A stretch of 64,000 nucleotides of DNA from Pseudodesulfovibrio sediminis (GTDB taxonomy: Bacteria; Desulfobacterota; Desulfovibrionia; Desulfovibrionales; Desulfovibrionaceae). The notes below the pieces were generated by a model. It did not search any database, was not told where the DNA came from, and was given only the letters and a program-made list of their open reading frames with translations. This document shows positions 2,289 through 64,000 of this stretch, one piece after another (position 1 is the stretch's first letter; every line of letters starts with the position of its first letter). The DNA lies in contig NZ_AP024485.1 of the NCBI RefSeq assembly GCF_020886695.1, positions 2,055,001 to 2,119,000 on the forward strand. Reading direction: 5' to 3'. The position numbers and the translations under genes were made by a program.

Positions 2289-4775
2289 ATGCACCTGAAA
2301 CGATTTTCCAGTATAGTTAAACATACGCCCTTTCGAGTCCTCCTTCCTTCTGTACTGATGCTTTTGCTCTTTGCAGGTTCACTCTTCCTGTACCTGCTGC
2401 CCAGCATGGAAAACGCCATCCTGGACTCGCGCAAACGAAACATCATGGAGATGACCAATGCGGTCATGGGCACACTGCAACTGCTCCAGACCAAAGTGGA
2501 AAGCGGGGAAACCACTGAAGAGGCCGCGCGCCTGTCGGCCAAGGAATTCATACGCGCCATGCGATATGGATATATGGGCAGGCACTATTTCTGGATCTCC
2601 GACCACAACTCCCGCATGGTCATGCACCCCTATCGCCCGGAGCTGGAAGGGCAGAACCTCGCAGAATTCGCGGACACCGAAGGGAAACGCATTTTTTCGG
2701 AATTCACCAAAATCGCTCACTCAACAGGGAGCGGCTATCTGCGCTACTACTGGCAGTGGAACGACCAGTCGGATTCCAACAGTGAAAAGATCGGCTATGT
2801 CAGTGAGTTCAAACCCTGGGGATGGATCGTCGGCACAGGACTCTATGTGGACGATATCAAAGATGAAATCGCCATGTACCGCAACCGGGTGGCTGGTATC
2901 TGCCTCGGCATCCTGCTGTTCATCTCCCTGCTCTCTTTCTATGTGCTCAGACAGGCGGCCATTACCGAAAAAAAGAATATCCACATACAGTCTCAACGGG
3001 AAAAACTGGTTCGTGTGCTGCGAGAGAGCGAAGAACGCTACCGGACCATCGCGGATTTCGCCTATGACTGGGAGGCCTGGGTCAGCCCGGAAAAAACCGT
3101 CCTGTACAGCTCGCCTGCCTGTCTGCGTATCACGGGGCACCCGCCGGAGCGGTTCTTTGAAAACCCCGACCTGCTTCGAGAAATCATCATCCCCGAAGAT
3201 CAGAACTCCTGGGATACCTACATAATCAAGGCCAACTCCGACAGGGGGGAAACCCTTGATTTTCGCATCAACTCCGCTGACGGCAAAACCCGATGGATCA
3301 ATGTGGTGGGCCGCTCCGTATCCGGTATCGGCGACAAGCCGCTGGGCATCCGCTTCTCCTTCCGCGACATCACCGACCGCAAAATCATGGAAGAGCAACT
3401 CAGGCACCAGGCGTTGCACGATCCGCTGACCAGCGTCGCCAATCGCACCCTCTGCCTTGACCGTGTCAGTCAGGCCATGCGCCGGGCCAGACGCCGTGAG
3501 AATTATTTCTTTGCCGTGGTCTTTCTCGATCTCGACAGGTTCAAGATCGTCAACGATTCACTGGGGCATCACTATGGAGATATGGTCCTCACCGAGACCG
3601 CCATCCGGCTGTCAAAGGAAATGCGCGGACTGGACACCGTGTCCCGATTCGGTGGAGACGAGTTCGTGTTGCTGCTGGATGAACTCTCCAGCCCAGGCGA
3701 AGCCCTGCGCATAGTCAAACGCATCCGTCTGAAACTCTCCGAGCCTTTTCGACTCCTTGGCAAGGAGGTCAAGACGACCGCCAGCTTCGGCATTGTCCTG
3801 AGTCCCGTACCAAACACCAAAGCCGCGGATATCCTGCAACACGCCAATATCGCCATGCACCGCGCCAAGGAGGCGGGGCGCAACCGGTTCAAGGTCTTTA
3901 CCAACCGCATGCTCGAAACCGCAGTGGATCAGCTGACCATGGAAAACGACATGCGCCATGGGTTGGAGGAAGGCGACTTCCATGTGGCATACCAGCCCAT
4001 CATGCAGCTCGGCGGATCGGATATTATCGGGTTCGAAGCCCTCGCCAGATGGAAGCACCCGGACCGGGGCAACATCCCGCCTGCGGAATTCATCCCCATG
4101 GCCGAAGAATCCGGCCTCATCAGCCAGATTGGTAAGTGGATACTGTTCGAATCGCTCCGCACGCTGGCTCAGTGGCAAAAACAGACCCCTGACGCAAAGG
4201 GCCTGTTCATGTCCGTAAATCTCTCCAGCAAACAATTTGCCCGCATTGATCTGGACTCGATGATACTCAACGCCCTGACAGAACAGGGGCTTTCCCCCGA
4301 CAGCCTCAAGCTGGAAATCACCGAATCCGCCATCATGGAAAACCCGGAATCCGCCATCCGCATCCTGAACCGGCTGCGCGCCAAAGGCATCCGTTTCTCC
4401 ATCGACGACTTCGGCACAGGGTATTCATCCCTGTCCCAGCTCCAGCAGCTGCCCGTGGACACCCTCAAGGTCGACCGCTCTTTCATCTCCCGCATGAAAA
4501 CAGACCCGGAAAACATGGAGATCGTGAAGGCTGTCATTGCCCTGGCCCACTCACTGGACCTCAGCGTCATTGCAGAAGGCGTGGAAAAACCGGACCAACT
4601 CCACTCGCTCATGCAACTGAAATGCGAATGCGTGCAAGGATTCTATTTCCATGAACCCATGTCATCGGAGAATGCGTTGGAGCTGGTCCTGCGGCGCACC
4701 ACTTCAACCAGGGATCAAACAGAACAGAAGATGACCCGGGCGCAAGCAGAACGCAGGGTCGACGAAGACGAATAA
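2289..4775 (+). CDS. Cache-PAS-GGDEF-EAL membrane protein (c-di-GMP turnover)
   Basis: A large dual-domain c-di-GMP enzyme of about 828 residues. In order: membrane helix (about 15-37), extracytoplasmic single-Cache sensor region (motifs YMGRHYFWISD, MHPYRPELEGQNL, WGWIVGTGLYVDDI), second membrane helix (about 200-220), PAS domain (about 240-370), GGDEF domain with canonical RFGGDEFVLL at about 453-462, and EAL domain. The I-site RxxD (RGLD) is present. The EAL domain looks intact: GFEALARW (EAL at about 583), DDFGTGYSSL, KVDRSF and AEGVE. It may make and degrade c-di-GMP depending on a ligand bound outside. The ATG at 2289 is preferred because GAGTGGA precedes it; a GTG at 2280 is possible. 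Confidence 0.93.
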   Translation: MHLKRFSSIVKHTPFRVLLPSVLMLLLFAGSLFLYLLPSMENAILDSRKRNIMEMTNAVMGTLQLLQTKVESGETTEEAARLSAKEFIRAMRYGYMGRHYFWISDHNSRMVMHPYRPELEGQNLAEFADTEGKRIFSEFTKIAHSTGSGYLRYYWQWNDQSDSNSEKIGYVSEFKPWGWIVGTGLYVDDIKDEIAMYRNRVAGICLGILLFISLLSFYVLRQAAITEKKNIHIQSQREKLVRVLRESEERYRTIADFAYDWEAWVSPEKTVLYSSPACLRITGHPPERFFENPDLLREIIIPEDQNSWDTYIIKANSDRGETLDFRINSADGKTRWINVVGRSVSGIGDKPLGIRFSFRDITDRKIMEEQLRHQALHDPLTSVANRTLCLDRVSQAMRRARRRENYFFAVVFLDLDRFKIVNDSLGHHYGDMVLTETAIRLSKEMRGLDTVSRFGGDEFVLLLDELSSPGEALRIVKRIRLKLSEPFRLLGKEVKTTASFGIVLSPVPNTKAADILQHANIAMHRAKEAGRNRFKVFTNRMLETAVDQLTMENDMRHGLEEGDFHVAYQPIMQLGGSDIIGFEALARWKHPDRGNIPPAEFIPMAEESGLISQIGKWILFESLRTLAQWQKQTPDAKGLFMSVNLSSKQFARIDLDSMILNALTEQGLSPDSLKLEITESAIMENPESAIRILNRLRAKGIRFSIDDFGTGYSSLSQLQQLPVDTLKVDRSFISRMKTDPENMEIVKAVIALAHSLDLSVIAEGVEKPDQLHSLMQLKCECVQGFYFHEPMSSENALELVLRRTTSTRDQTEQKMTRAQAERRVDEDE

Positions 4776-10643: not shown

Positions 10644-11567
10644 TCAGGCCAACTCTGCCCCGATACAGATATTATTGATAAAAATACAGTTGCGACCAGC
10701 CTTCTTGCTCAAATACGTCTGTTTATCCGCTCGCTCCAGCACCGCGCCCGCAGGCTCGCCACTCTCTGCCAGCGCACCTCCAATGGAGACCGTCACAAAA
10801 ATCTTCTGCCCCTCATGGTTCAGCCAGGCGTTCTCAACAAGCATACGGAGCCGTTCCGCCATCCTGGCCAGTCCGTCTTTTGTCGTATTGGACACCAGAA
10901 CCACAAACTCCTCGCCACCCCAGCGACACGCCACATCCAGAGGACGCAGCACCGCCTTCAGGGTCTTGGCGACAATGCCAAGGACCTTGTCCCCCACAGC
11001 GTGCCCATAGGTGTCATTCACCTTTTTGAAATGATCAATGTCGAGGAAAAGCACACCAAACGGGACATCGCTTTGACTCATGACACGGTCCAAGCGTTCC
11101 ATACTGATATCAGCGTATCTGCGATTGCCTATGCCTGTCAGCGTATCAGTCAGCGCTTCCTTGCGCAGTGCTTCCATTTCCTTAAGCAGGTCAACACCCT
11201 CGCCGTTCGGCGAAAACACCTCTACGGCACCAATGATCTTGCCGGATTGGTCCCGTATGGGTGACGCGCGAACAAAGACTGGCACCCGGTGCCCGAATTT
11301 ATGATGCATGAAGACATTGGCTTCGCGAACAACTCCATCAAGCATGGTGGCCGCCATAGGGCAACCGGTCAGACACAGGTTGTTACCGTCGCCGTCAACA
11401 TGCCGCAACACATTGTCCGCACAGCTTTTGCCTATGACTTCATCTGCAGAATACCCGCTTAACCGTTCCGCAGCCTTGTTCCAGAATGTAACATTGTGGT
11501 CCGCATCAAGAAAATAAACTCCATCCGTCATGGAGTCGAGCAACCCTCTATAAAAAGCATTGTCCAT
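10644..11567 (-). CDS. PAS-GGDEF diguanylate cyclase
   Basis: A 307-residue cytoplasmic protein with a PAS domain (about 5-120, including GVYFLDADHNVTFWN) and a GGDEF domain (about 135-300). The signature CRWGGEEFVVL is intact (GGEEF at 217-221) and the I-site RPLD lies five residues before it, so it should make c-di-GMP from GTP and be product-inhibited. The PAS part carries two cysteines in NNLCLTGCP (about 65 and 69), which could be redox- or metal-sensitive but are not a known cofactor motif. The start at 11567 has GAGAGG upstream and directly precedes the PAS domain; the longer frame to 11636 is not supported. Confidence 0.92.
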   Translation of the reverse strand: MDNAFYRGLLDSMTDGVYFLDADHNVTFWNKAAERLSGYSADEVIGKSCADNVLRHVDGDGNNLCLTGCPMAATMLDGVVREANVFMHHKFGHRVPVFVRASPIRDQSGKIIGAVEVFSPNGEGVDLLKEMEALRKEALTDTLTGIGNRRYADISMERLDRVMSQSDVPFGVLFLDIDHFKKVNDTYGHAVGDKVLGIVAKTLKAVLRPLDVACRWGGEEFVVLVSNTTKDGLARMAERLRMLVENAWLNHEGQKIFVTVSIGGALAESGEPAGAVLERADKQTYLSKKAGRNCIFINNICIGAELA

Positions 11568-58522: not shown

Positions 58523-59752
58523 CTAGCCCTTCACAAGCCGATTTCTGCCCTCTGATTTGGCTTGATACAGCAACTTGTCAGCCTGTGAAATCATGGAACT
58601 GACAGATCCGAGAATCGTGGCATCGCATAACCCCATGGAAAGTGTCACCTTGAGATCGGGATGATATTCCTCCCACGGATATGCTTCAATGGCCTGCCGA
58701 ATATTCTCGCAGGACACTGCGGCATGTTCCTTGTTGGTATGAGCAAAGAGCACCACGAACTCTTCGCCGCCATACCGGGCCACGACATCACTCTTGCGGG
58801 TATTCTTTTCAAACAGTTCGGCCACTTTTTCCAGAACCAGATCGCCGATCTCGTGCGAAAATGTATCATTGATCTGCTTGAAATGATCCAGATCACCGAC
58901 CATGACTGACAGGGGTTGTTCATACCGGGTTGCGCTTTCGTAGTAGTGCATGGCCTGTTCATCAAAATGACGACGATTGTACAGGCCGGTGAGCGGGTCC
59001 TTGATCGCCAGCTCCCGCAACTCCGTATGCGCCCGGGCCAACTCCACATTCATTTCGTTAAATGACTCCGCCAGCTCGCCCAACTCGTCATTGGAAGTGA
59101 CCTCCACCTGCCAGACCTCTTCACGATGTTCATGCATGAGCTTGACCGCGGTCGTCAGGTCGGTGACGGCCTTGCTCAAACGTCGGCCAAACACCACTCC
59201 AAGGACCAACGACAGCCCTATCGCTATAAGGGCGCCCCGAATCAGTGATTGCTTCACCGCGCCGAGATAGCGCATGTCCTGAGGGGTAAAGACCTCATCT
59301 CCGATAGTTGAACCAAGCGCGACAACCTCTCCCTTCAACTCGATGGGAACGGCTTCCTCCATGACGGCAGCCGACACCTTTTCTCCCACCTTCAGCCCTC
59401 CGGCGGGCATGACGACCACACCGTCCGCATCCAGAAGCAGGAGTTTGAATGGAGGCTGCTCCCACCTGTCCACCAAAGGCGGTGTCCCCTTCGCAGGGGG
59501 CCGTTTGTCCTGTTGCAGTCGATGATTTCGACGCACATAGGTGTCAAATTCTTCGGATGCCAACGCTTCTTTCAAGCCGCCGTACAGTCCGATGTACCCG
59601 AGTACATCCTCCTGAAACGATGCGAAAACACGAGTTCTGGAGACCTCCTGAAAATCGCTTTTCACCATATAATAGTCGATGTACCCGACAATACCGCAAC
59701 TGAATAAGCCTATAAAAACAAACGCCAAAATGAGTTTCGTCTGCATCCGCAT
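58523..59752 (-). CDS. Sensor-HAMP-GGDEF diguanylate cyclase
   Basis: A 409-residue membrane protein. Helix 1 is at about 6-27, a periplasmic sensory part follows (about 28-168), then helix 2 (about 170-190), HAMP (about 190-243) and GGDEF (about 245-409). The signature is intact, YGGEEFVVLF (GGEEF at 328-332), with I-site RKSD five residues before it. It should make c-di-GMP in response to a periplasmic signal. Divergent from the two-partner secretion locus, whose leader holds a c-di-GMP riboswitch. Convergent with the hydrolase gene. Confidence 0.93.
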   Translation of the reverse strand: MRMQTKLILAFVFIGLFSCGIVGYIDYYMVKSDFQEVSRTRVFASFQEDVLGYIGLYGGLKEALASEEFDTYVRRNHRLQQDKRPPAKGTPPLVDRWEQPPFKLLLLDADGVVVMPAGGLKVGEKVSAAVMEEAVPIELKGEVVALGSTIGDEVFTPQDMRYLGAVKQSLIRGALIAIGLSLVLGVVFGRRLSKAVTDLTTAVKLMHEHREEVWQVEVTSNDELGELAESFNEMNVELARAHTELRELAIKDPLTGLYNRRHFDEQAMHYYESATRYEQPLSVMVGDLDHFKQINDTFSHEIGDLVLEKVAELFEKNTRKSDVVARYGGEEFVVLFAHTNKEHAAVSCENIRQAIEAYPWEEYHPDLKVTLSMGLCDATILGSVSSMISQADKLLYQAKSEGRNRLVKG

Positions 59753-60351
59753 GGAATGTTCCCTTTTTCAGAGGTGAAGAGTGAACATGGGTATCTTTTT
59801 CACATCATACAAGGAGAAATTTATCTGTCAATGAGTATGCTTGGTTATCCATGACAGAGGCCCGAAGGACACCCCCCCCCCGGGCCTCTTGTGGGCGAGT
59901 AATAAAGTTTTTAACTTGAGCAACCAGTATCTCTTTTATTTCGGGAGTTGTGGAAGGGATAAATTAATAAAGTCTTTAAATCATGAGGCTGTGAACATGG
60001 ATTGCCCACAGTTTTCAAAGTAATAAAGTTTTTAATTGGAAGTAGGCTTGGTGTTACCAATAGGAGCTATGCAAAAAAAATAGTCTCGTTGTATTGGAGC
60101 GGCACTATATCAGACAGAACCGCATATTCAAGAATTAATGATAGGGGATTGTAACTCTGATCGTGATCAGCGTATACTTCTGAGTTTTTTTTCACAAAGA
60201 AATATTCAACATATCAAAGCATTATATTGATTCGCTGACAATTCCACAGAAAAGTTACTAAAAACAGGTTGACTATTGGCTTTATCCAAACATAGTAATC
60301 ACTCCTTGAAAGATGGTTGTTCCGGGGTGGAGTTGCCCATCTGATACCAGT
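59753..60351. other. Promoter and leader region of the two-partner secretion locus
   Basis: This 600-base stretch has no gene. A hairpin at 59856-59889 (AGAGGCCCG with CGGGCCTCT) has a loop containing ten consecutive C (59872-59881). Three copies of TAATAAAGTTTTTAA occur at 59900-59914, 59965-59979 (one base changed, C for T) and 60021-60035. A 14-base dyad CTGATCGTGATCAG lies at 60157-60170. The rest is AT-rich. This is an unusual concentration of possible binding sites. Confidence 0.55.
59900..60035 (+). repeat. Three 15-base repeats TAATAAAGTTTTTAA
   Basis: Copies at 59900, 59965 and 60021 (spacing 65 and 56) are identical apart from one T-to-C in the middle copy. They lie between the divergent GGDEF gene and the riboswitch-led tpsB. 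They could be binding sites for one protein. Confidence 0.65.
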
Positions 60352-60424
60352 AAAAAAGCCAAATTCGTCGTGAGGCGGAGACGGAAAGCCACGGGTCTTC
60401 TGATTGAAGACAGCCGGGTTGCCG
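60352..60424 (+). promoter_or_regulatory. c-di-GMP-I (GEMM-I) riboswitch aptamer
   Basis: The first hairpin is TTCGTC (60364) and GGCGGA (60374) closed by a GTGA (GNRA) tetraloop at 60370-60373. The downstream part reads GACGGAAAGCCACGGG (60380), then GTCTTC (60395) paired with GAAGAC (60406), and AGCCGGGTTGCCG (60412), nearly identical to the GEMM-I consensus. Two internal pairs are kept by a swap: consensus G21-C46 is C59-G84 here (60359 with 60384), and C22-G45 is conserved (60360 with 60383). The ligand-contacting G (position 20, at 60358), A47 (60385) and the C in GTTGCC (60422) remain, favouring c-di-GMP over cGAMP, which needs A at position 20. Confidence 0.85.
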
Positions 60425-60484
60425 CAGAGAAGTTGCGTCATAGCTTCTATTCTCCTTTCATACTCTAAATTTTGGCCTAACCGA

Positions 60485-60510
60485 GCTTGCCATGCGGCAA
60501 GCGGCGAGGA
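60485..60510 (+). promoter_or_regulatory. Hairpin touching the tpsB ribosome site
   Basis: GCTTGCC (60485-60491) pairs with GGCAAGC (60496-60502) over ATGC, directly followed by GGCGAGGA (60503-60510), the ribosome site for the GTG at 60518. This is the only clear structure between the aptamer and the start, so it may belong to the expression platform. Confidence 0.4.
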
Positions 60511-60517
60511 TATTGCT

Positions 60518-62296
60518 GTGGTCAAAGAGCGGGGATTTGTTTTTTCTCACAAGAGAAAGCACGGTGGAGGCACTCGCTGCAGCCGACAACTTGCATTCTA
60601 TCTTCTTTTGTGTATCGCGCTGTTTGCCCCCAGCCTTTGCTGCGGTGCCCCCATTGACGACGCCATCCGGCAGCAACAGCAGATTCAGCAGCGGGAAGAA
60701 CAACGACGACGCCTGCAGCAGGAACAACTCGAACAACAAACCAAGCAACCTCCTTCAGGTCTTGATCTCAAGCAAGAGCCACCTGTGCCCCCCTTGGACA
60801 GTACGACTTGTTTCGATATCCGTTCAATCAATGTGACCGGCGTAACGTTGATCCCATCCAGTACCATTGATGATTTGACCAGTGAATACAAAGGGCGCTG
60901 TCTGGGCTTGGCGGATATTAATGAATTGCTCAGAGCCATTACCAATGAATATGTTGGACGTGGATATGTAACCTCCCGGGCCTATCTGCCGGAACAGGAC
61001 ATTTCTAGCGGCGAACTTGAGCTCAAGGTTATTGAGGGACGAATTGAAGATATCCGTTTAAACGACGGTAAGGCCAGGCAATATCAACTTCTAGGCCCAT
61101 TCATGGGGCTTAAAGGAGATCCACTCAATCTTCGCGACCTTGAGCAGGGATTGGATCAGTTCAATCGTTTGTCTTCAAACAACGCAACAATGAAACTCGT
61201 GCCTGGTAGCAATCCAGGGCTAAGTATAGTTGCCATTACCAATGAGCCCGCCAAGAGCTGGCGGATATCATTTGGCTGGGATGATTCCGGCATGGATTCC
61301 ACGGGTAGGAACCAATATTCCCTACAATTTGACAAGGATAACTTCATCGGAATTAGCGATATGCTTTCCCTGAACTATTCGGCCACGCCTATGCCTTGGG
61401 AAGACTCCAAACAAGCAAAGAACAGCAATAGTATTTTTGCTTCTTGGTCTGTGCCCCTCGGCTATTGGACAATTAATACATTCGTCAGCAAATTCAATTA
61501 TGCCACCAGTCTTATGGGCACGACACAGGAATTTTCAAATGATGGTGAGACCAACTTTCAATCCGTGGGAATTGACCGCGTCATTCATCGCGACGCTGAC
61601 AGCAAGACGTCTTTGGGAATCGGCGTGGAGCATCGTGAGGTGGAGAGCAGGATTGAAGGCGTCCGTCTGGTGGCCAGCAGCTACGAAACCACCGATGTCG
61701 GCCTCAAAGCCAGTCACGCCCGCCGTCTGCTGGGCGGATCGCTAAGCGTTGGCCTCGAATATCACTGGGGCGCAGACTTCTTGGGTTCCTCTGAGCCGCT
61801 TGCTGGTGACGATGTTCCCACCCCAAAATACGAGAAATGGGAAGGGACTCTGAGCTATTACCATCCCATTTATTTCGCCGGTCAATCCTTGATGTGGAGT
61901 TCGACCCTTCGTACCCAATACAGTGGCGACACTTTGTACAGCGCAGAAAGAATGTCTATCGGTAGCCGCTATACGGTTCGAGGATTTTCGACCGACAGCC
62001 TGAGTGGGGATAGCGGGGGTTACATACGCAACGATCTCTCTTGGCGATTGCCCTTGCAGAGCTACGGCACCGACAAGATATCGGCTTGTGATTTATTTGC
62101 TGGATACGACTACGGGATGATCCTCCACGACAAGAACGATCCATACGAGCGCGGCCACTTGCAAGGGGTTGCCTTGGGCTTGAGGACTTTGGGGGAATTG
62201 AGCGCCCATGTGACTTTCGCCAAGGCGATAGCCGCACCCAATTTTCTAGAAAAAGAAGACCTTGAAATTTATAGTGCCTTGACCGTGATGTTTTAG
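60518..62296 (+). CDS. TpsB-type outer-membrane transporter (FhaC/ShlB/HecB family)
   Basis: A 592-residue two-partner secretion translocator. The start is GTG at 60518, with GCGAGGA about seven bases ahead; the frame is open upstream to 60404, but that part is riboswitch sequence. A signal peptide (about 25-45, LAFYLLLCIALFAPSL) precedes a Q/R-rich coiled coil (QQQQIQQREEQ), POTRA domains (CFDIRSINVTGVTLIP, YVGRGYVTSRAYLPEQDI) and a beta barrel. The RYTVRGF motif (conserved VRGY/F), and terminal YSALTVMF, fit the family. It should carry the TpsA exoprotein through the outer membrane. AT-rich, likely acquired. Confidence 0.92.
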   Translation: MVKERGFVFSHKRKHGGGTRCSRQLAFYLLLCIALFAPSLCCGAPIDDAIRQQQQIQQREEQRRRLQQEQLEQQTKQPPSGLDLKQEPPVPPLDSTTCFDIRSINVTGVTLIPSSTIDDLTSEYKGRCLGLADINELLRAITNEYVGRGYVTSRAYLPEQDISSGELELKVIEGRIEDIRLNDGKARQYQLLGPFMGLKGDPLNLRDLEQGLDQFNRLSSNNATMKLVPGSNPGLSIVAITNEPAKSWRISFGWDDSGMDSTGRNQYSLQFDKDNFIGISDMLSLNYSATPMPWEDSKQAKNSNSIFASWSVPLGYWTINTFVSKFNYATSLMGTTQEFSNDGETNFQSVGIDRVIHRDADSKTSLGIGVEHREVESRIEGVRLVASSYETTDVGLKASHARRLLGGSLSVGLEYHWGADFLGSSEPLAGDDVPTPKYEKWEGTLSYYHPIYFAGQSLMWSSTLRTQYSGDTLYSAERMSIGSRYTVRGFSTDSLSGDSGGYIRNDLSWRLPLQSYGTDKISACDLFAGYDYGMILHDKNDPYERGHLQGVALGLRTLGELSAHVTFAKAIAAPNFLEKEDLEIYSALTVMF

Positions 62297-62305
62297 GAGA
62301 AACAG

Positions 62306-64000
62306 ATGAAAGCCAATATAGTTGTTCGCCAGCTGCTTAGTATTGTCCTGTCATGTCTGATCGTTTTTCAGCCAGGTTTTATCGCTATGGCTGGCGATCT
62401 CCCGATTGTGGTTGATCCGGCCGCTCCAGATGGAAAGAAACCGACCATGGATCAATCCGGAAACGGGGTTCCTATCGAGCAGATTGCGACGCCGGGAAAA
62501 GGTGGGATTTCGCATAACCTGTTTACCGATTTCAATGTTAATAAAATTGGTTTAATTATTAACAATAGCAAGTCCATGGCAAAGTCTCAATTAGGCGGCT
62601 TTATCGCAGGCAATCCCAACCTTAAGGGAGGAGAAGCTCGATTAATTTTGAACGAGGTTACAGGTGCCAATCGTTCATATCTTGAGGGATACACAGAGCT
62701 GCATGGAGCCAAAGCGGATTATATTTTGGCGAACCCCAATGGCATCACCATCAATGGTGGCGGATTTGTCAATTTCCCTCGAGTTACTCTGACCACGGGC
62801 ACTTCCCGCTTCGGTGCAGGAGGACTCGAAGGCATCGACGTTCGTTCTGGAGATATTTTGGTTGAGGGCGAAGGTGTAAACGCCACCGAGATTGACGCCT
62901 TTACATTGCTCGCCCAAGCGACTCGAATCAATGCAAACATCTACGCCAAGACCCTGACCATCGCAGCTGGACAGAACTCTTACAATCCCACCAACGGTTC
63001 CATTGCCTCTTTGGCTCACGATGGCACGCCCACTCCCTCTGTTGCCATCGATTCGAGCGCCTTGGGCGGCATGTATGCGGGACGCATCGTGCTCCAGGGC
63101 ACCGAGGCCGGAGTCGGGGTTAACCTTGAAGGCGTCATCCAGTCTGCGGATTCATTGGAGCTGACGGCAGATGGACAGATTCGCCTGAGAAACAAGACGA
63201 CCGCCGGAACCGACATCAAGATTCACTCCCACAACGGTGATGTAGCCATCGAAGATACGGTTTACGCCGGAACCACTGCGAGTGTGAGCGCCGCAGACGA
63301 TCTCACTATAAATCCGGGTGCTTCCGGTAAAGGCATTGTGGTAGGAGCCGCTGAACAGCTCAAGTTGGCCGCCGCCATCGTTAATACGACAGATGCAAAG
63401 ATTACCGCAGGACTTCAGGCTGACGGGACAGTTTCCGGCGGTTCCTTGTCCGTAACTGCAATGAACCAATTGACCACAAAGGACACTGAACTCGTTTCTG
63501 GCGACAGTTTGTCCATCGTGTCACCTAAAATTGCCATCAACGGTGGCAAAATTACAGCCGTTAGCAAGCTCGGTGTCCAGGGCTCTAATTCCGGCGATGT
63601 CACCATGACTGGTGCGGCAGAGTTGTCTTCTTTGAATGCCTTGGAAATAGAAGCGCGGTCCTTGACTGCGGCCGATGGTTTGCTGAAAGCCGATGATCTG
63701 ACCTTGTCGTTGGCTGGTGATTTCGATTTGGGTAATGCCACTCTGAGTTCCACTGGTGCATTGGCCTTGAATGCCAATTCGCTGAAAAGCGATGCAGGGA
63801 CTTCTATCACCAGTTTCACTGATATGTTTCTGACCTTGGATACCCTGCAAAACGATGGAGGTTTGATCTACGCAGGCAATATATTGGACTTGAATGTTCG
63901 AGAGTTGAGCAACACCTCTGAGGGCTATATCGTTGGTGTCAAAGGTGTGGCCATTGAAGGTCTCACGACAGGTTCTCGAGCGGATTTGATCAACAACAAC
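62306..64000 (+). CDS. TpsA-type secreted adhesin (filamentous haemagglutinin-like), C-terminus missing
   Basis: The frame opens at ATG 62306, nine bases after the tpsB stop, with TAGGAGA overlapping that stop, and is still open at the window end (565 codons seen). A signal peptide (about 1-29, ending MAGD) is followed by the TPS secretion domain: ISHNLFTDFNVNKIGLIIN, then ILNEVTGANRSYLEGYTEL and the ANPNGITINGGGF motif (NPNGI). After about residue 250, weakly repeated beta-helix sequence begins (ASSVSAADDLTINPG-like units). Such proteins act as adhesins, haemolysins or contact-dependent inhibition toxins, decided by the missing C-terminus. Confidence 0.9.
   Translation, partial: MKANIVVRQLLSIVLSCLIVFQPGFIAMAGDLPIVVDPAAPDGKKPTMDQSGNGVPIEQIATPGKGGISHNLFTDFNVNKIGLIINNSKSMAKSQLGGFIAGNPNLKGGEARLILNEVTGANRSYLEGYTELHGAKADYILANPNGITINGGGFVNFPRVTLTTGTSRFGAGGLEGIDVRSGDILVEGEGVNATEIDAFTLLAQATRINANIYAKTLTIAAGQNSYNPTNGSIASLAHDGTPTPSVAIDSSALGGMYAGRIVLQGTEAGVGVNLEGVIQSADSLELTADGQIRLRNKTTAGTDIKIHSHNGDVAIEDTVYAGTTASVSAADDLTINPGASGKGIVVGAAEQLKLAAAIVNTTDAKITAGLQADGTVSGGSLSVTAMNQLTTKDTELVSGDSLSIVSPKIAINGGKITAVSKLGVQGSNSGDVTMTGAAELSSLNALEIEARSLTAADGLLKADDLTLSLAGDFDLGNATLSSTGALALNANSLKSDAGTSITSFTDMFLTLDTLQNDGGLIYAGNILDLNVRELSNTSEGYIVGVKGVAIEGLTTGSRADLINNN

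Follow-up and report, generated by a model that had tools for sequence, protein, structure and literature searches.

A c-di-GMP-I riboswitch of the C21-G46 form, situated in the leader of an operon of the contact-dependent inhibition (CDI) type, is the best explanation as a whole of the segment described here, and one that we hold with considerable confidence. The segment lies in a 64-kb stretch of bacterial DNA that was analyzed in full and is called the window below. When RF01051 alone was searched against the 3.76-Mb genome, positions 60349..60427 (+) were identified as a c-di-GMP-I (GEMM-I) aptamer with 68.1 bits (E 4.4e-13, gathering score 35), a significant covariance-model score that bears out the GEMM-I identity proposed in the initial annotation. 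A cmscan of the whole window, from which one same-clan overlap with a lower score was omitted and in which clan competition was ranked by E-value, gave this segment as the sole Rfam match above the gathering score; RF03167 (c-di-GMP-I-GGC) matched the same aptamer with 65.7 bits (E 2.7e-13). The genome contains two RF01051 matches, each above the cut-off, and the second is located upstream of an HD-domain protein. Among 14 control genomes, eight had weak RF01051 matches at E ≤10 and none had a match above the cut-off. The two matches in this genome and the lack of any above the cut-off in the controls indicate that the aptamer match is more than chance. A search of 60 relatives returned 107 matches, in 50 genomes, and the score of the window aptamer is among the upper ones. 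The segment is a genuine c-di-GMP-I riboswitch aptamer and an ordinary one, a new member of a known riboswitch class.

The features that had been named from the letters are all present where they were placed. On the + strand, a GTGA (GUGA) tetraloop of the GNRA type caps P2 at 60370-60373, GACGGAAAGCCACGGG runs from 60380, the strands GTCTTC (60395-60400) and GAAGAC (60406-60411) form a perfect P3-type stem, and AGCCGGGTTGCCG runs from 60412. Vc2 numbers were assigned to the window bases from the covariance-model alignments, which place G20 at 60358, C21 at 60359, C44 at 60382, G46 at 60384, A47 at 60385, G83 at 60413, and C92 at 60422, all on the same strand. The ligand-contact positions G20, A47, and C92 are canonical, and C44 and G83 are kept. 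The window copy has in common with RF01051 aptamers such as Vc2 the P2 with a GNRA loop, P3, G20, C22-G45, C44, A47-A49, G83, and C92. It differs by C21-G46 where the model consensus has G21-C46, by the GUGA loop, by a weak P1, in which the cmscan alignment flags mismatches, and by two extra flanking hairpins.

Positions 21 and 46 of the window copy form a Watson-Crick pair as C-G. The initial annotation had read this as a compensating swap that keeps the fold; the C-G pair is there and the pairing is kept, but neither is special to this copy. Every one of the 68 matches from the window's genus (probably Pseudodesulfovibrio) carries C21-G46, and an individual compensating swap was rejected on this count. 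Across the 107 matches from the 60 genomes, C21-G46 occurs in 88 (86 with G20 and two with A20) and G21-C46 in 15, of which 14 come from one other family; four were not assigned by the pattern. At least 116 stretches of public genome contigs matched a pattern for the C-G form, and the 80 listed include Deltaproteobacteria, Sulfurovum, Methylomicrobium, Photobacterium, Alteromonas, and some contigs of the window's genus. A published conservation list for c-di-GMP-I (PMC3764141) includes positions 20, 22, 44, 45, 47-49, 83, and 92, and 21 and 46 are absent from it. The C21-G46 pair is a real, pairing-preserving, but ordinary lineage-wide form of GEMM-I.

The aptamer is located in the leader of a two-partner secretion operon, as had been proposed. 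The first gene, tpsB (60518..62296, +; 592 aa, probable GTG start), encodes a CdiB-like outer-membrane transporter of the ShlB/FhaC type with two POTRA domains (PF03865 ShlB, 4.1e-86; PF08479, 2.9e-28; PF17287, 7.1e-19). It is followed by a cdiA-like tpsA gene, of which the window holds the first 565 codons (62306..64000, +; PF05860 TPS, 1.8e-50; PF13332 hemagglutinin repeats, 7.3e-75); the gene runs on past the window end, and its product in the genome has 2339 aa. Three bases after tpsA there is a 107-aa ORF, for which Pfam gave MshEN alone, below the cut-off, and next to it an orphan DUF637/PT-VENN/DUF6883 protein. Farther downstream are a repeat fragment, another DUF637/PT-VENN protein, two Col-Pyo_DNase tips, an Imm42 protein, and two transposase-type genes. 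The region downstream of the operon (L277, genome positions 2124000-2143000) holds orphan genes for toxin tips and immunity-like proteins in a row, together with an integrase-type and an IS200-type transposase.

The N-terminal 400 residues of TpsA are 41-78% identical to those of the window in all 10 relatives that share the leader, the G009 protein being compared through the larger of two frames with 154 residues aligned. The TpsA-like gene of that genome (L287, G009:C45) consists of two overlapping frames (258 and 1675 aa) and is either interrupted or the result of an assembly error. When the last 130 residues of the 11 proteins were compared, only two pairs of tips matched at E 1e-3, namely window/G020 (56%) and G034/G033a, and the window/G020 pair also has the following small ORF in common (55%). 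In six of the 11 loci, the tpsA stop is followed within 20 nucleotides by the start of an ORF of 85 aa or more. Within the last 350 residues, Colicin_D, Ribonuclease, Col-Pyo_DNase, DUF637, or PT-VENN domains score above curated cut-offs in six of the 10 relatives. The tips of the other four have none above the cut-off, G004 falling just below that for DUF637 and G034, G033a, and G020 having sub-threshold matches only. The tip of the window's own TpsA matches PBECR1, a nuclease family of the Barnase/EndoU/ColicinE5-like kind, at E 0.09, and that of the G020 homologue does so at E 0.0076, both below the cut-off. PADLOC gave no match for the three proteins submitted.

The conserved N termini, the mostly unmatched tips, the toxin-type domains, and the orphan cassettes together suggest that the operon is probably a polymorphic toxin locus of the CDI type, with the gene order cdiB-cdiA-immunity, and not one for plain adhesion. 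CdiB/CdiA/CdiI loci are those of contact-dependent growth inhibition. The operon resembles them in having a ShlB-type transporter gene directly upstream of that for a TPS-domain protein with hemagglutinin repeats, and the locus and its relatives do so in the variable tips, the DUF637/PT-VENN domains of relatives and orphan cassettes, and the small ORF after tpsA. The operon differs from them by the c-di-GMP riboswitch in its leader. Judged by their sequences, the tips would be toxic and the small ORFs protective; for the window's own tip, toxicity is suggested by comparison with the relatives. In the initial annotation the downstream products were described as an outer-membrane transporter and a large secreted adhesin. 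The transporter and the large secreted protein are confirmed, but the variable tips of the relatives make the latter CdiA-like. The function in surface attachment that was drawn from this label is not upheld, since the evidence from the variable tips, the matched G020 pair of tip and small ORF, and the orphan cassettes favors a polymorphic toxin of the CdiA type.

The combination of aptamer and operon recurs in the genus. At E 1e-20, 15 genes for TpsB relatives were found in 12 of its 36 genomes, and the aptamer is present in the leader of 11 of them. Of the four that lack it, three are the most distantly related (35-37%) and the fourth, in G024, stands at 44%; neither the aptamer nor the 5' motif described below was found in the stretches around these four genes. 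For 101 of the 107 aptamer matches in the 60 genomes, the following ORF could be assigned. One HD-domain family, confined to the genus, accounts for 33 ORFs, 15 belong to a cluster (11 of them from one other family) whose shown members have pilin-like N termini as read from the letters, 11 are TpsB, four belong to a response-regulator family, and the rest form smaller groups. The HD-family member of the window's own genome matches HD_5 at 3e-23, and the c-di-GMP phosphodiesterase model stays far below its cut-off. The company of HD-domain, pilin-like, TpsB, and response-regulator genes supports c-di-GMP as the ligand.

The genome has 22 GGDEF domains above the cut-off. One of them belongs to a diguanylate cyclase with GGEEF and an upstream RxxD motif (58523..59752, -; PF00990, 8.9e-43), which is encoded divergently from the operon and could possibly be a local source of c-di-GMP for the riboswitch. 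Four GGDEF domains of the genome are inside the window, at about 1671-2126, 3411-3887, 10689-11156, and 58538-59005. Between this diguanylate cyclase and the operon, at 59898-60040, there are three direct copies of a 22-nucleotide repeat around TAATAAAGTTTTTAA, 65 and 56 nucleotides apart, which may be a regulator site.

Two other views of the aptamer itself have to be weighed, and the first of them would change its ligand. That the aptamer is a c-di-GMP-I-GGC variant (RF03167) or a cGAMP sensor is very improbable. The GGC model shares its overall layout with the window copy, which passes the RF03167 gathering score, and it ranks ahead of RF01051 by E-value both in the cmscan and in the genome search (3.7e-15 versus 4.4e-13); by bit score RF01051 is higher (68.1 versus 65.7). 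The cmscan alignment has A47 in the window copy against G47 in the RF03167 consensus, a difference that places the copy outside the GGC variant, and this identity was rejected. The family name GGC presumably denotes positions 20/47/92, which fits the model consensus. Ranking Rfam families by E-value can mislabel a C21-G46 GEMM-I aptamer as a GGC variant. With regard to cGAMP, the homologous GEMM-Ib aptamer of Geobacter that senses it has A20, whereas the window copy has G20. According to PMC6456294, cGAMP forms carry A20, and an A20G change turns a cGAMP-selective aptamer into a c-di-GMP-selective one. This precedent lends support to the earlier argument from G20, and by analogy the window aptamer is expected to prefer c-di-GMP over cGAMP; we infer from its sequence that it binds the ligand. 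The second view, that the aptamer is decayed or non-functional, is the least likely of all. Its poor P1 pairing would fit such decay, but the core is kept in 11 of 11 TpsB leaders despite diverged flanks (one of these, in G030, has A20), and its score is high among those of the relatives.

Two aptamers of the genus have A20 with C21-G46 kept, L051 (G030:C1:2372149-2372226, -) and L063 (G026:C1:2296041-2296115, +). The one in G030 is in the leader of a TpsB operon, and a close relative, G019, with a leader about 95% identical, has G20. In both A20 aptamers the preference may have changed toward cGAMP. A third and weak match in the window's own genome (G000:C1:2674644-2674748) reaches 29.3 bits with RF03167. 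Weak relatives of GEMM-I (29-36 bits) were seen in this genome and seven relatives (L113:1501-1605 (-), L102, L104, L105, and L107-L110). They have a shortened P2 without a GNRA loop and in four or more cases are followed by a small conserved protein; in the own-genome case a RecQ-like helicase gene, read from the letters, lies farther on. These relatives with a short P2 are possibly a degenerate or altered aptamer. Four tandem C21-G46 GEMM-I aptamers precede a single gene for a small secreted protein in L037:1524-1875 (-) of G042:C105.

The aptamer of the window is flanked by two predicted hairpins. Upstream, a weak promoter-like site, TTGACT-16-CATAGT (60269..60296, +), was obtained by a consensus scan that gave five sites across all strands in 1001 bases where 1.5 were expected; a transcript from it would start at about 60303. 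The 5' hairpin, P0 (60311..60342, +), is predicted to have an outer stem AGATGG/CCATCT, an inner stem TTCC/GGAG, and a loop GGGGT at 60324-60328. The motif GGGGT[AG]GA, which corresponds to the loop and the 3' side of P0, is found 5' of the aptamer in 11 of 11 TpsB-linked cases versus two of 57 other aptamers of the genus (Fisher p 5e-11, a value inflated by relatedness). The two exceptions are both in G029, near contig ends, and the G005 leader has a GAGGT form of the motif. Native P0 arms pair better than arms swapped between leaders, with p=0.0025 for 13 leaders and p=0.012 for eight representatives; among the 13 are the G005 leader and one of the two G029 leaders, neither of them TpsB-linked, and the second G029 leader was omitted because it is nearly identical to the first. 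When sequences are folded singly, the z-scores are weak (+0.4 to -1.9 in 14 leaders), with a mean of -0.1 over 54 other upstream stretches from the genus. The support for P0 therefore comes from the motif association and arm swapping, both of them statistics on related leaders that are not independent.

Downstream, the 3' hairpin P4 (60428..60448, +) is predicted as AGAAGTTG-CGTCA-TAGCTTCT. A C/TGTCA (C/UGUCA) loop follows the aptamer in eight of the 11 TpsB-linked leaders and is absent in G033a, G034, and G009; it is also present in both G029 leaders and in G005, and two lipoprotein leaders have a similar form. The arm swap gave p=0.008 for 12 leaders and p=0.050 for eight representatives, in a set from which the TpsB-linked G033a, G034, and G009 leaders and the second G029 leader were omitted and to which the two lipoprotein leaders were added. 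The arm-swap tests thus support pairing of the P0 and of the P4 arms. A pairing of the CGUCA loop with GACG of the core comprises four bases, too few for a claim. With E up to 10, Rfam gave no family at P0 or P4 in the window, only scattered and unrelated low scores. Outside the genus, the motif-aptamer pattern accounted for 16 of the 29 matches listed from 348 genomes of the order, and a reversed-pattern control gave seven. Two of the 16 (G126 and G072) fall on GEMM-I-like sequence, and tblastn found no TpsB in the stretches searched. A strict C21-G46 pattern gave 88 matches in 84 loci (80 of the at least 116 public stretches and four others), and the 5' motif is present in a single one, a contig that matches G020.

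The leader and the body of tpsB differ in their relatedness. Window and G022 are 81-96% identical from the last 60 bases of the aptamer through the next 240, after which identity falls to 70% and then to 36-65%. In the comparison with G034, identity is 30-50% over the 240 bases that follow the aptamer and 70-85% in the tpsB body. This contrast indicates that the leader behaves as a module. When L112 is compared with L020 and L036, the relatedness of the riboswitch leader and signal-sequence codons is unlike that of the tpsB body, as recombination of a block would produce. We tentatively propose, as a reading close to evenly balanced but a little short of it, that the CDI-type operons of the genus share a three-part leader, composed of the GGGGU 5' hairpin, the GEMM-I aptamer, and the CGUCA-type 3' hairpin, which, together with the signal-sequence codons, would be transferred as a unit between otherwise different TpsB genes; the hairpins would constitute a novel RNA element acting jointly with the aptamer. 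If this is true, the timing of the production of contact-dependent weapons would be set by the biofilm messenger, perhaps with a second input through the 5' hairpin.

A possible expression platform lies between the aptamer and tpsB. The aptamer 3' end TTGCCGCA (60419..60426, +), which includes C92, can form eight perfect pairs with the complementary TGCGGCAA (60493..60500, +). A local hairpin, GCTTGCC-ATGC-GGCAAGC (60485..60502, +), which appears in the minimum-energy folds, competes for the same GGCAA, and a probable Shine-Dalgarno sequence, GAGGA (60506..60510, +), is situated 7 nucleotides before the GTG. The TTGCCGCA/TGCGGCAA pairing and the local GGCAAGC hairpin would make a reasonable two-state platform. 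In such a scheme, c-di-GMP from the GGDEF enzymes of the cell would bind at G20, A47, and C92 and hold the 3' strand GGGUUGCC(GCA), and the GGCAA segment could then fall back into the local hairpin. In the ligand-free state, UGCGGCAA, which closely precedes the ribosome-binding site, would be available to the 3' strand for pairing. High c-di-GMP, as in cells crowded on surfaces, would most likely raise the expression of the CdiB/CdiA-like proteins, with control exerted on translation or by factor-dependent termination.

Across leaders, conserved pairing of the anti-P1 type is marginal, with p values of 0.035 and 0.054 for 33 HD leaders and of 0.079 and 0.059 for the 11 TPS leaders, where the UUGCCGCA/UGCGGCAA pairing shows no clear conservation. 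A scan for intrinsic terminators from 59700 to 60700 found none. A pyrimidine tail of the Rho type was judged unconvincing, since 12% of the 40-mers in the window match or exceed the C-minus-G value of the tail. The stretch from +12 to +52 after the aptamer is G-poor, with a mean G of 0.15 in the 11 TPS leaders, and 0.6% of the window 40-mers are as low in G as the window's tail. Imposing the aptamer, with a constraint comprising P2 and the 21-46/22-45 pairs and neither P3 nor ligand energy, made the ribosome site less accessible in the prediction for the window (mean access 0.39 before, 0.30 after) and for G033a (0.36 before, 0.18 after), and shifted this value by at most 0.04, in either direction, in nine of 11 leaders. 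Access is barely changed, so the folding does not predict the direction of the switch.

We lean toward an ON switch, in which c-di-GMP raises expression. The opposite, an OFF switch by which c-di-GMP lowers operon expression and the system serves dispersing or planktonic cells, is a distinctly weaker but still serious candidate. The GEMM-I class acts both ways, Cd1 being an OFF switch and pilM an ON switch according to PMC9262584, and the reduced access in the window and G033a would agree with OFF; the near-constant access in the other nine leaders does not, and contact-dependent systems should serve dense surface growth. The identity of what is switched could also be read otherwise, with the same riboswitch controlling a TpsA that is mainly an adhesin, its variable tips incidental, so that c-di-GMP would switch attachment. 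TpsA does carry the N-terminal domain and repeats of filamentous hemagglutinin, and a precedent is found in CdrAB of Pseudomonas aeruginosa, a two-partner secretion system under c-di-GMP control as here; in the available portion of PMC6584795 that control acts on release of the adhesin CdrA and not through a riboswitch, which the present operon has. This reading is unlikely, because the mostly unmatched tips, the bacteriocin-type nuclease domains in several relatives, the one matched pair of tip and small ORF, and the orphan cassettes are the signature of polymorphic toxins. The plain adhesin was rejected as the leading reading on the variable tips, the bacteriocin-type domains, and the orphan cassettes, and adhesion may be an additional role of TpsA.

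A riboswitch-controlled two-partner secretion system was not found in the portion seen of the literature on c-di-GMP riboswitches with two-partner secretion, hemagglutinin, adhesins, Desulfovibrio, or Pseudodesulfovibrio. Most discussions of contact-dependent inhibition treat it as kin discrimination among densely growing cells. To our knowledge, little has been established on what tells a cell to build it, and we know of no CDI locus that has a c-di-GMP riboswitch leader. The interest of the present aptamer lies more in what it controls than in the aptamer itself. The setting is that of sulfate reducers, whose biofilms matter for corrosion. For a CDI-type operon under a c-di-GMP-I riboswitch, the sequences suggest that the biofilm signal c-di-GMP probably controls competition with neighbors. 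If this is true, the presence of a c-di-GMP riboswitch in 11 leaders of this kind within a single genus would link competition between bacteria directly to the biofilm messenger.
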